This document shows, in pieces, positions 19,161 to 42,965 of a DNA stretch of 64,000 bases. The notes under the pieces are model-generated. The model was not told the origin of the DNA, searched no databases, and saw nothing but the letters and a program-made list of their open reading frames with translations. The stretch comes from Lacrimispora celerecrescens (lineage in GTDB: Bacteria > Bacillota > Clostridia > Lachnospirales > Lachnospiraceae). A program made the position numbers and the translations under genes. The stretch is taken from positions 62,001-126,000 of the forward strand of contig NZ_JPME01000014.1 in NCBI RefSeq assembly GCF_000732605.1. Reading direction: 5' to 3'. Positions within the stretch are counted from its first letter, which is position 1. Every line of letters starts with the position of its first letter.

Positions 19161-19204
19161 AAAAACAAAAAAATCCCGATATTGGGGGTGTTCCAATACT
19201 GGGA
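19161..19204 (-). terminator. Terminator of the alpha (rpmJ...rplQ) operon
   Basis: On the minus strand TCCCAGTATTGG pairs with CCAATATCGGGA (one mismatch) and is followed by TTTTTTTGTTTTT. It lies downstream of rplQ and of the structured element at 19231-19373, which is therefore transcribed in the rplQ 3' untranslated region. Confidence 0.85.
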
Positions 19205-19230
19205 AGGGGGGTAGTACAAGCTGGCGGGTC

Positions 19231-19373
19231 GTGAGTCCGCAGTGCAAGCTGGCAAATCCGTTGGATATGCCAGCTCCCGGGCATTCGCCCTATGAAGAAA
19301 GGTTCGATAAGGTTTTCTTATGTGCAAGCACAACGAAAACTTTATCGAACCTCTCTTCAGCACTGCTCATTGC
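19231..19373 (-). repeat. Structured four-helix repeat element, copy A
   Basis: Read on the minus strand: closing stem GCAGTGC/GCACTGC (19360-19366 with 19239-19245); helix P2 of 65 nt (19294-19358), with 24-nt arms and the apical module TTGTGCTTGCACATAAG; helix P3 GGGCGAATGCCC (19279-19290); helix P4 of 29 nt (19247-19275), AGCTGGCA...TGCCAGCT with inner ATCC/GGAT. P2, P3 and P4 are separated by 3-nt linkers. Copy B at 41771-41912 has the same helix lengths and linkers, identical loops, but different paired sequences. It starts 12 bases after the rplQ stop. It could be a structured RNA or a hairpin-recognised DNA element; no protein gene is implied. Confidence 0.7.
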
Positions 19374-19384
19374 TTACGTGCAGT

Positions 19385-19921
19385 TTATACTAATTCAAGA
19401 ACGACTGCCATAGCTCCGTCACCTTTACGCTGGCCGATCTTAACGATACGTGTGTAACCACCGTTGCGGGATACGTACTTTGGTGCCACTTCATCAAACA
19501 GTTTCTTTGGCAGATCAACAGATTTTGTATTCTTCTTTCTTCCTGCAGCCTGTGCGGGAACTTCTGTTACATCATAAAGAACTTTTAACATCTGTCTTCT
19601 AGCGTGAAGTCTGGAAGGAAGGTCTTTCTTGATTTCTTTCTCTACTTCATCGTATACGGTAACTTTCTTGCCGTTAACAACTTCTTTTACTCTCTTGCCG
19701 TCTTTATCTTTACGTGCAACCTTTGCGGTAACCTTAACGGTTTCAAAGTTGTCTTTCTCTTTTACCGCTAAAGCGATGAGGCCTTCAGCCACCTTGCGGA
19801 TTTCTTTTGCTCTTGCCTCTGTTGTCACGATTTTGCCATTATATAATAATGCAGTTACCTGGCTTCTGATTAATGCTTTTCTCTGGCTGGAAGTTTTTCC
19901 CAGCTTTCTATATCCTGCCAT
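19385..19921 (-). CDS. rplQ: 50S ribosomal protein L17 (bL17), long form
   Basis: It starts MAGYRKLGKTSSQRKALIRS and ends GGYTRIVKIGQRKGDGAMAVVLELV, both diagnostic of bL17, which lies near the peptide exit tunnel. At 178 residues it is about 55 longer than the usual 120-127. The excess lies in the middle (about residues 60-130, rich in Lys, Asp and Val, including KEVVNGKKVTVYDEVEKEIKK). The frame is open and the region fully coding. It is the last gene of the alpha operon. Confidence 0.96.
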   Translation of the reverse strand: MAGYRKLGKTSSQRKALIRSQVTALLYNGKIVTTEARAKEIRKVAEGLIALAVKEKDNFETVKVTAKVARKDKDGKRVKEVVNGKKVTVYDEVEKEIKKDLPSRLHARRQMLKVLYDVTEVPAQAAGRKKNTKSVDLPKKLFDEVAPKYVSRNGGYTRIVKIGQRKGDGAMAVVLELV

Positions 19922-36144: not shown

Positions 36145-36286
36145 GTGACTTGTCGCCAGTTTCCTAACTTGACATTCGCTCCACGGAAAACCTGCTTTTA
36201 TAAGCAGCAACCTCACGTTTCACAGCTATCATGCCACAGCCTTTGTATATTAACATATTTTTTTTTTACATTGCAAGCACTTTTTT

Positions 36287-40478: not shown

Positions 40479-41771
40479 ATGAAAAAAACAACTCGCGCTG
40501 CCTGTCTGATCCTAGTCCTACTTCTTGCAGGCTTGCCCCTCTTTGGCGGCCCGGCTGCTGGAAAAGGCACTGAATCGACCAGAACCAGCGCACTTTTAGC
40601 ACATTCTTCAGACAGCGGACAAGCACTGCATACTCTGGCCCTTGGTCCCGGCCTTATAAACTTATCCCCCGCGGATGAATTTTCCACTTACCAGTGGGGA
40701 CTAAAAAATGACGGGGAATTTCGTCTTATAGAGCTAAAATCCAAATTTAAATCCATTGATAATATTTATGATGGACGGAATTCAAAAGACGGTACCATGA
40801 AGCCCGGTCCCGGAGACTATGAATCTACAGTGATCGGTGCTGTCACTGGAATCGATATTAACATACAGCCTGCATGGAAGCTTTATGATCAGGCTGAGAG
40901 CAAGCGCTCTGTCATTGTCGCCATCATCGATACCGGCATTGATATCAACCACCTGGAGCTTAAAGATGCCATCTGGACCAATCCCGGCGAGATTGATGGG
41001 GATGGAATTGATAATGACGGCGACGGGTATGTAGATGATATTCATGGCTGGAATTTTTATTCCGGAAACAACCAGGTCTTCACAGGCAGCGAGGACAGCC
41101 ATGGAACCCATGCAGCAGGAACCATCAGCGCCGCCAGGGGAGCCTACGGCATTGCCGGGATCACGGATAATAACTACATAAAGATCATGCCTTTAAAGGC
41201 CCTGGGAGGCGAAGACGGACTGGGATCCCCGGAAGCGGTGATCCAGGCGATCCATTATGCCGAGGCACACGGCGCTTCCATCTGCAACTTAAGCATGGGA
41301 ACCAATGCCTACAGCGAAGAACTGGCCCAGACCATGAAAAATTCCAGCATGCTGTTTGTGGTATCCTGCGGTAACGGCGGGGTCTCCGGACTTGGATATG
41401 ATACAGATATCTACCCTGTTTATCCGGCTTCCCTTCCCTATGACAACATAATCTCCGTAGCAAACCTCATGTTTGACGGGACCTTAAGCAGTGATTCCAA
41501 CTATGGCGCAACCAGCGTTGATATAGCCGCCCCAGGCAGCTACATTTTAAGCACTGTTCCAGGTAATGCCTACGGTTTTATGAGCGGCACTTCCATGGCA
41601 GCCCCCATGGTAACTGGTGTAGCCGCCATGCTCTATTCTTACAGGCAGGACATCTCCCTGTCTGATGTTAAAACGATTCTTTTAAATTCCAGCCGGAAGC
41701 TGGATACCCTAACCGGAAAGATGGTGAGCGGAGGACTCCTAGACGCATACGGAGCCCTAACTTCACGATAG
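40479..41771 (+). CDS. Secreted S8 family (subtilisin-like) serine protease
   Basis: A 430-residue protein with a signal peptide (MKKTTRAACLILVLLLAG) and a propeptide-like region to about residue 120. The catalytic triad is visible: Asp in VAIIDTGIDINHLE, His in DSHGTHAAGTISA, Ser in FMSGTSMAAPMVTG, with the oxyanion Asn in VVSCGNGG. The acidic stretch DGDGIDNDGDGYVDD resembles a calcium-binding insert. AAGGAGAT lies upstream of the ATG. The stop codon abuts structured element B. Confidence 0.92.
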   Translation: MKKTTRAACLILVLLLAGLPLFGGPAAGKGTESTRTSALLAHSSDSGQALHTLALGPGLINLSPADEFSTYQWGLKNDGEFRLIELKSKFKSIDNIYDGRNSKDGTMKPGPGDYESTVIGAVTGIDINIQPAWKLYDQAESKRSVIVAIIDTGIDINHLELKDAIWTNPGEIDGDGIDNDGDGYVDDIHGWNFYSGNNQVFTGSEDSHGTHAAGTISAARGAYGIAGITDNNYIKIMPLKALGGEDGLGSPEAVIQAIHYAEAHGASICNLSMGTNAYSEELAQTMKNSSMLFVVSCGNGGVSGLGYDTDIYPVYPASLPYDNIISVANLMFDGTLSSDSNYGATSVDIAAPGSYILSTVPGNAYGFMSGTSMAAPMVTGVAAMLYSYRQDISLSDVKTILLNSSRKLDTLTGKMVSGGLLDAYGALTSR

Positions 41772-41912
41772 CAACGAGCAATGCGAAATAAGACAGAAGA
41801 AGATTTTTATTGTGCTTGCACATAAGAAAATCTTCTTCTGTCTTATTTCATAGGGCGAATGCCCGTGAGCCAGCGGATCTGCAAGATTCGCTGGCTGCAC
41901 TGCGGACTTCAC
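41771..41912 (+). repeat. Structured four-helix repeat element, copy B
   Basis: Plus strand: closing stem GCAATGC/GCACTGC (41778-41784 with 41897-41903, one mismatch); P2 of 65 nt (41785-41849) with a perfect 23-bp stem and apical module TTGTGCTTGCACATAAG; P3 GGGCGAATGCCC (41853-41864); P4 of 29 nt (41868-41896), AGCCAGCG...CGCTGGCT with inner ATCT/AGAT. Helix lengths and 3-nt linkers equal those of copy A, and the flanking GCAAcGAGCA and GCGGACTTCAC are also shared. It exactly fills the gap between the stops of the subtilase gene and the convergent mupG. Confidence 0.72.
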
Positions 41913-42965
41913 CTACAATATTAATTTCACTCCAAGCCCCTTCTGAACATAGGGCAAATATTTTATATGAGAGTCATGAACCTGTCCAATGATATTTACT
42001 CTATCCTCTCCAGGCAGATCAACTCTGGCGATTTCAAGTTCTCCCATATACCTTAAATAATTTTCATTAGAAATGCAGATACTTCCCTGCTTCCTTACTT
42101 GTGACTGATTCTCATGATCCGGTTTAATGTTCCGATCGTACTGTCTTGATTCCTGGGAACGGATAACATATTCGCTGGAATCCGGTCTGTCATGATGAAT
42201 GATGTCTCTTACAAATTCATAGGTAGAAAGTATGTCTGCCTTAAGTTCCACATAATCATGGCTTAAGCATTGAATATCCTTCCAGTCCTTTTCCTCCACA
42301 TCCACATCACCAATCAGCACCACATCACAGAACCCGTCATAGAAGAGCTCCAGCATGTTCAAAAGCACCTGGTCTTTCCTCTCCCGGTGTTCTTCCACCG
42401 TGGGAAGACCTTCAAACAAGGGGCCTCTCAGCTCCAGATTCCCAGGCACAAATGCCATGGTAGTAAAACCAAGATATTGAAGCCTCTGATTCATTTCCTT
42501 TGTCCGTTTCAGAGACAAGGCGGTGAACTGCTTTGGATAAAAGTTATGGCATGCTGCAAATCTGGTAAAATCTGCCCCATACTTTTTCCACTCTAAAAGT
42601 TCCTCCTCCATAATGGTGGAGGCATTAAATACCACATAAAAATCCTTTGAAATCTCTACCGTCTCTTTTGCATCAAAGCCATAATCAAGGCGGACATGGG
42701 TGATTCCAAGCTCCTTTAACTCTGCAATGCTATCTGTTTCAAACTTTTCCAGGGTTTCCGGGCCCACATCTACAATGAGATTTAAGCCACCTTCCCTGCA
42801 CATGCTCAGAAGCTTAAGTACATCCGAACGGTAATCGATTCCTGTTTCTTCTGGAATGTGGAGTGAAGTAAATGCATACTTCACTCCGCTCTTTATCGCT
42901 TTCTTTATTAAGCGTTCATTCTTTTCCATTCCACTTGAAAAATAGATTGAAATTCCTGTATTCAT
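41913..42965 (-). CDS. mupG: 6-phospho-N-acetylmuramidase MupG (DUF871 family)
   Basis: A 350-residue protein with an N-terminal TIM-barrel (MNTGISIYFSSGMEKNERLI, FTSLHIPEE, LNLIVDVGPETL, ITHVRLDYGF) and a C-terminal beta-rich domain from about 240. This architecture is that of the DUF871/MupG family, which in Staphylococcus cleaves MurNAc-6P-GlcNAc inside the cell. The gene directly follows murP and shares the operon with murQ and murR, so the product should hydrolyse the phosphorylated disaccharide imported by MurP, releasing MurNAc-6P for MurQ. Confidence 0.9.
   Translation of the reverse strand: MNTGISIYFSSGMEKNERLIKKAIKSGVKYAFTSLHIPEETGIDYRSDVLKLLSMCREGGLNLIVDVGPETLEKFETDSIAELKELGITHVRLDYGFDAKETVEISKDFYVVFNASTIMEEELLEWKKYGADFTRFAACHNFYPKQFTALSLKRTKEMNQRLQYLGFTTMAFVPGNLELRGPLFEGLPTVEEHRERKDQVLLNMLELFYDGFCDVVLIGDVDVEEKDWKDIQCLSHDYVELKADILSTYEFVRDIIHHDRPDSSEYVIRSQESRQYDRNIKPDHENQSQVRKQGSICISNENYLRYMGELEIARVDLPGEDRVNIIGQVHDSHIKYLPYVQKGLGVKLIL

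Follow-up and report, generated by a model that had tools for sequence, protein, structure and literature searches.

The window, by which the whole analysed stretch of 64,000 nucleotides of Lacrimispora celerecrescens DNA is meant, carries two copies of one element, copy A lying 3' of rplQ on the minus strand and copy B being fused to the 3' end of a subtilase gene on the plus strand. The sequence of copy A (CACG...CTCACG) extends over positions 19230-19380. Its fold comprises the P1 5' strand GCAGTGC (19360-19366), a hairpin P2 of 65 nt (19294-19358) with a conserved apical sequence at 19317-19333, the 12-nt hairpin P3 GGGCGAATGCCC (19279-19290), a hairpin P4 of 29 nt (19247-19275), and the P1 3' strand GCACTGC (19239-19245), all on the minus strand. 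Just 5' of copy A a -10-like hexamer TATAAA (19384-19389, minus strand) is formed by the final codons of rplQ (GTA TAA). A terminator-like hairpin followed by a run of T was read by eye at 19175-19203 on the same strand, and with such a terminator copy A might be released as a short RNA of its own. The sequence of copy B extends over positions 41764-41912, with hairpin P2, again of 65 nt, at 41785-41849 (apical sequence at 41810-41826), hairpin P3 at 41853-41864, the 29-nt hairpin P4 at 41868-41896, and the P1 3' strand at 41897-41903 facing its partner at 41778-41784.

An earlier note on this DNA had described two stretches with one fold plan, and its coordinates, the lengths of P2, P3 and P4, the 3-nt linkers and the identity of the apical sequence between the two copies all hold. 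Its limits for the element were too narrow, as the real ends lie further out on both sides, from CACG to about GGACTYACG, and the P2 arms which it had called unrelated proved to be diverged forms of one consensus. Its description of the loops as fixed is right for the apical sequence of copies A and B; the apical stem covaries in some copies, pair 53-66 being UA in 15 and CG in 2. Likewise copy B does lie where it had been placed, at the subtilase stop, yet does not merely abut it, since the stop codon TAG (41769-41771, plus strand) sits inside the element. As judged from the sequence and from relatives without copy B, in which the subtilase gene closes on its own codons and stop, this codon is supplied by the element. 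There are at least two places where the last codons and the stop of an upstream gene come from the element, namely the end of cobQ (locus L143, about 1480-1525) and positions 41764-41771 of the window.

Compared with shuffled sequences the fold energy has a z of -9.81 for copy A and -10.84 for copy B. A covariance model, R1, matches copy A at 19225-19382 with 153.4 bits and copy B at 41762-41917 with 165.2 bits, and a search of the window up to an E value of 10 added no further match except an antisense reading of the hairpin of copy B. Rfam gave no match at gathering scores to the element copies in the window. The only Rfam match of the window at gathering score is an S10-Clostridia ribosomal protein leader (RF03136) at 36150-36231 on the minus strand, with 94.9 bits.

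Fold and distribution of the element

Model R1 and the underlying alignment A1 were built from 17 copies of the element in its own genome. The search of this genome that the earlier note had proposed was successful, as R1 yielded 35 matches which, sorted by hand, represent 20 full-length copies, 12 antisense readings and three fragments. Eighteen of the full-length copies score above 130 bits, and two divergent ones reach 91 and 70 bits. The apical 17-mer, with at most one mismatch, occurs at 14 places in the genome, its reversed control at none. In alignment A1, the rows of which are 17 paralogues of one genome, 96.5% of the cells pair, as compared to 33-52% when the partners are slid. Thirty of its 52 pairs have changed on both sides, amounting to 118 doubly changed cells, and none of 500 shuffles attained any of five covariation measures. 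What the earlier note would have taken as evidence against its reading, the finding of just two copies or of no covariation, was not what emerged, and its claim of a conserved structure with covarying stems is borne out.

Seven species of the genus were also compared at their rplQ copies, that of genome G002, which lost P4, being excluded. Here 13 pairs swap one Watson-Crick pair for another on both sides, alongside four G.U cells and 13 mismatched cells, five of which are the same A.C position and four of which lie in P4 of genome G006. The predicted four-helix fold is supported by covariation, then, also between species at the fixed rplQ site. In the consensus hardly any change is seen in P3, in the linkers or in the apical bulge.

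Paired changes of this kind could also arise at the level of DNA, if mismatches in a palindrome were copy-corrected by template switching during replication, with no selection on an RNA. G.U pairs are scarce in A1 (11 of about 849 standard cells; in 27 tRNAs used for comparison they make up 49 of 585 pairs), which fits such a correction, and in P2 the G.T mismatches come near to balancing the A.C mismatches (51 vs 32, p 0.048). Against it, conserved G.A mismatches persist, and almost all of them are in the sense strand: G.A or A.G was counted 131 times and T.C or C.T three times in 127 hairpins above a score threshold, many of which are mutually related so that the counts are not independent. 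This one-sidedness by strand fits recognition of the folded sense strand. A correction mechanism also leaves P3, the apical bulge and the linkers staying as they are to be accounted for, and it is tenable as a minority reading.

All 25 genomes of the genus, the own one among them, gave matches to the element. Seven of these contain 29-45 matches, antisense readings counted, and the other 18 contain 1-5. Of 299 genomes sampled from the family, which is taken to be Lachnospiraceae, 121 had matches, and among other families of the order one of 16 genomes did. Claveliimonas bilis c-25 and Roseburia inulinivorans, both cultivated commensals, are among the named records with a match. No exact pattern match was found in the viral_contigs set, and viral carriage was dropped as a candidate on this result. 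Several of the low-copy genomes have the same copies in common, either before ftsE or beside a lipoprotein gene, and the divergent copy after phoU is shared by the own genome and genome G022; the names of neighbouring genes come from reading translations by eye. The copies of the own genome have the ends CACGWAAGC..GGACTTACG. With a length of less than about 200 bp, no coding capacity, a dispersed occurrence and empty sites in relatives the element has these characteristics of a MITE, and the dispersed copies together with the empty sites support the mobile-element reading that the earlier note had listed among its possibilities.

Some copies are rearranged. At locus L141 the right end before the lipoprotein gene (1640-1740, in element orientation) consists of a 20-bp unit in about six head-to-tail repeats, the unit being made up of the P4 3' arm and a P1 strand, and similar right-end repeats occur at L149, L176 and L416. 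A collapsed copy at about position 1501 of L402 reads GAGCA joined to GCACTGCGG, with all three inner hairpins gone between the P1 repeats.

Empty sites and insertion next to -10 hexamers

At the 3' end of rplQ the element is present in eight of 22 genomes of the genus, shortened in G002, and absent in 14. Where it is absent the site passes from rplQ into a terminator-like hairpin, and all 14 empty sites contain TATAAT or TATAAA, GTATAAT encoding valine and the stop. Empty sites were read for rplQ and 14 further loci of the own genome, and an ancestral -10 was defined as a word with at least five of six matches to TATAAT directly 5' of the insertion point in the relatives. Such a hexamer was found at 10 of the 15 sites, a count which leaves out L140, L149, L158, L159 and the remaining own copies. 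Besides rplQ this included trpS (TTGACA..TACAAT in 8/8 empty sites), cobQ (4/7, within coding sequence), L141 (TTGAAA-17-TATAAT in 4/4), L144 (5/5), L148 (6/6), L150 (7/7), L153 (3/3), L155 (5/5), and L156 (7/7). The chance of such a word at three neighbouring positions is 0.026 per site, as determined from 136,708 positions, and the binomial chance of at least 10 in 15 is 3.8e-13. The five sites without a good ancestral -10 are L146 and L151, where it is weak, and L145, L152 and copy B, where there is none. At L145 the promoter is on the element's right side. From the empty sites read here the promoter rule does not extend to copy B.

The same arrangement was seen in a larger set of 108 copies, made up of 90 of 109 matches, after cut-off, tandem, antisense, second and some other matches had been removed by hand, plus 18 own copies. 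From these, 103 copies of the own genome and of named records of the family could be anchored, and 91 of the 103 have a word with at least five of six matches to TATAAT just before the element, the best word standing exactly at -21 from the GAGC anchor in 80. In the 91 copies the bases of the hexamer have frequencies of 95-99%, which are conditional on having chosen copies with a TATAAT word; the TG of an extended -10 (77% and 85%) and a -35 TTG at a 17-nt spacer were not selected for. Flanking words were analysed in 98 parsed elements, or 95 once shared upstream regions had been removed. TATAAT stands on the left in 81 of the 95, and a -10 of the opposite strand to the right of the element was at background, with at most three of 95 at any offset. 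In 85 of 90 cases the element and the gene downstream of it point the same way, with a median gap of 60 nt between them, and in 35 of 93 an upstream gene of like direction has its end no more than 60 nt from the element. Proximity to a stop codon, which the earlier note had considered as the basis of a processing or stability element, is on these counts not the rule.

A duplication of the target is less plain in the flanks. A general comparison of left with right flanks was not significant in 102 of the 108 copies, six having been dropped for too little flank (z 0.98, p 0.17). TATAAT-like words after the right end number 22 at offsets 3-15, as compared to 3, 6 and 9 in the next windows of equal size, and when L153 and trpS were set by eye against their empty sites an apparent second copy of the -10 region was seen on the right. 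A duplication of about 9-11 bp is likely from these flanks.

Insertion in one polarity on the 3' side of a short fixed motif, the hairpins with conserved bulges and the weak terminal inverted repeats would all suit a single-stranded DNA element that is moved by a Y1/HUH enzyme, in the manner of IS200/IS605 or of RAYT/REP elements, into the melted strand of open promoters. The Y1 transposase (PF01797) does not track copy number, however, and two of the seven high-copy genomes, G008 and G014, have none, on which ground it was rejected as the mobiliser and the REP-like identity proposed in the earlier note is left unsupported, although an old burst of insertion could have outlived its enzyme. Furthermore, some loci look target-duplicated, and HUH insertion is not known to make target duplications. 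All in all this mode of movement seems unlikely.

The sense orientation, the 5' leader position and the conserved loops with covarying stems would also be expected of a vertically inherited cis-regulatory RNA, such as a riboswitch or a protein-binding leader, which does not move, and the copies before ftsE and beside the lipoprotein gene in several low-copy genomes could be domesticated ones. The downstream genes are unrelated, however, the neighbours of the 20 own copies, named from translations read by eye, vary widely, and clean empty sites exist at the same loci, so that an inherited leader is very improbable. That the promoter belongs to the element, which would then be a mobile promoter with its own -35 and -10, is scarcely credible and was disfavoured as a candidate. 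For all the exact spacing of -10 and -35 in most copies, the -10 is already there in the empty sites at 10 of 15 loci and is stop-codon sequence at rplQ. Moreover, in 55 pairs of copies whose bodies agree to at least 85% and which do not look orthologous (four of 59 similar pairs having been set aside because they did), the promoter spacers have a median identity of 0.29, the background value of all pairs. Spacers at least 50% alike occur in 7 of these 55 pairs, as compared to 5% of all pairs, and for this reason some upstream DNA may travel with the element or be related.

Similar described elements and the search for a mobilising enzyme

In listings of the literature no description of the element turned up. 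Nearest to it among described families is the Rfam family Clostridiales-1 RNA (RF01699), whose cut-off it misses. At the gathering score of 48 bits RF01699 matches none of 18 element loci, and at E values up to 0.05 it matches four of 20 others with a best score of 41.2 bits, so an Rfam match, which the earlier note had named as speaking against a new family, exists in a weak form below the gathering score. In reverse, R1 gives weak matches in four of 26 RF01699 loci. The two have a closing stem, a long P2 with a GCUUGC tip, P3 and P4 in equal order, and both are multi-copy and dispersed.

They differ in their ends and targets. In RF01699 the ends are inverted, TGATRCCAGGGTCAAAAG, and flanked by AT-rich duplications of 6-7 bp, as read in the 12 of 30 loci that were parsed, and this combination, defined in the present analysis from those 12 loci, was not found at the copies of the element with their own type of ends. 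In the RF01699 flanks the longest shared word is 7.08 as compared to 4.73 under permutation, with none of 20,000 permutations as high, and no -10 at a fixed distance was found, at most five of 33 left flanks having one at any one offset. Owing to its inverted ends and target duplications RF01699, classed as an sRNA of unknown function, looks like a mobile element itself. In the table of Weinberg et al. 2010 (PMC2864571) the entry for Clostridiales-1 is "probably" for RNA and "n" for cis-regulatory. Of the 299 genomes sampled from the family, 148 contain Clostridiales-1 at E values up to 1e-5, 129 of these above the cut-off. The loci examined were L250-L279 and L343-L361, and derivatives of about 69-77 bp which consist of P2 alone exist (L356, L357). 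The kinship depends on weak covariance-model scores in both directions, and the element, which differs in its ends and its target, probably represents a sister family of RF01699 and not a member of it.

By type the element stands close to the structured MITE-like repeats, including bcr1-bcr18, ERIC, NEMIS and YPAL. The repeats bcr1-bcr18 of the Bacillus cereus group are, in the accounts drawn on here, likewise non-coding and 100-400 bp long; bcr1-bcr3 are MITE-like and often found in UTRs, bcr10 and bcr18 have a conserved secondary structure, and mobility is linked to TTTAT repeats, not to promoters (PMC3446304, PMC6542083), the comparison with the element being one of descriptions. Correia/NEMIS, ERIC, RUP and YPAL are short and non-autonomous, and their folding transcripts have been proposed to affect adjacent mRNAs (Delihas, PMC2229807). 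The parts of that review used here report variable duplications of 3-26 bp for YPAL and do not describe insertion between a -10 and a start site for any of the four (PMC2229807).

A transposase gene bounded by the ends of the element was looked for with the left-end pattern in a limited search of eight genomes, and none was found. The pattern gave 18 matches in seven of the eight genomes. Thirteen matches were re-found by pattern, 10 of them with P3 and the others being the collapsed derivative at L402, a copy without P2 at L412 and one with a diverged P3 at L404. An autonomous parent of the family was not among the left-end matches in these genomes. The inverted ends of RF01699 were matched in four of five genomes searched for an autonomous parent of that family. 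Among the matches listed the paired ends lie about 69-93, 184 and 237 nt apart, with one pair at 811 nt which proved to be two separate short elements around a frame of 149 codons, and no autonomous RF01699 parent was found among the matches listed for the five genomes.

Proposed mechanism and meaning

Taken together, we consider it probable that the element, about 150 bp long, is mobile, non-autonomous and MITE-like, that its sense strand has a conserved four-helix fold, and that it inserts in a polar manner 3' of a sigma-A-type -10. As the comparison of filled with empty sites shows, it enters with fixed polarity between the -10 and the expected start of transcription, either at promoters belonging to unrelated genes or at sequences that resemble a -10, and the original promoter core then stands 5' of the element and the next gene 3' of it. 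Transcription would then start at the first bases of the element, CACG, and due to this the mRNA would begin with the fold, and new copies would be transcribed without carrying a promoter of their own. A trans-acting enzyme would recognise the folded single strand, and its target may be either the polymerase or the DNA that is melted around the -10. In this way many unrelated messages probably come to begin with the folded RNA.

A more specific and rather doubtful version is a SINE-like retroelement, or a transposon guided by RNA polymerase, in which the folded transcript would be recognised by a trans-acting enzyme and written back with fixed polarity into the transcription bubbles of other promoters. 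The 5' end of the transcript would be the promoter's own start site, and each new copy would by this route obtain a working promoter. The Ty3 retrotransposon of yeast integrates at transcription start sites. Ty3 is an autonomous retroelement of a eukaryote which depends on Pol III, so that the likeness lies in integration at the start site and the difference in the non-autonomous and bacterial nature of the present element. Were the SINE-like version true, the element would be a bacterial counterpart of retrotransposons that target start sites, with Clostridiales-1 as a sister lineage directed to a different target.

Whichever way it moves, the element as read here would be a concrete case of a bacterial mobile element that aims between the -10 and the start site of sigma-A-type promoters. 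It thereby probably rewrites many mRNA 5' ends in abundant gut bacteria. If RF01699 is a mobile element as suggested above, this changes the reading of such annotated "RNA genes".
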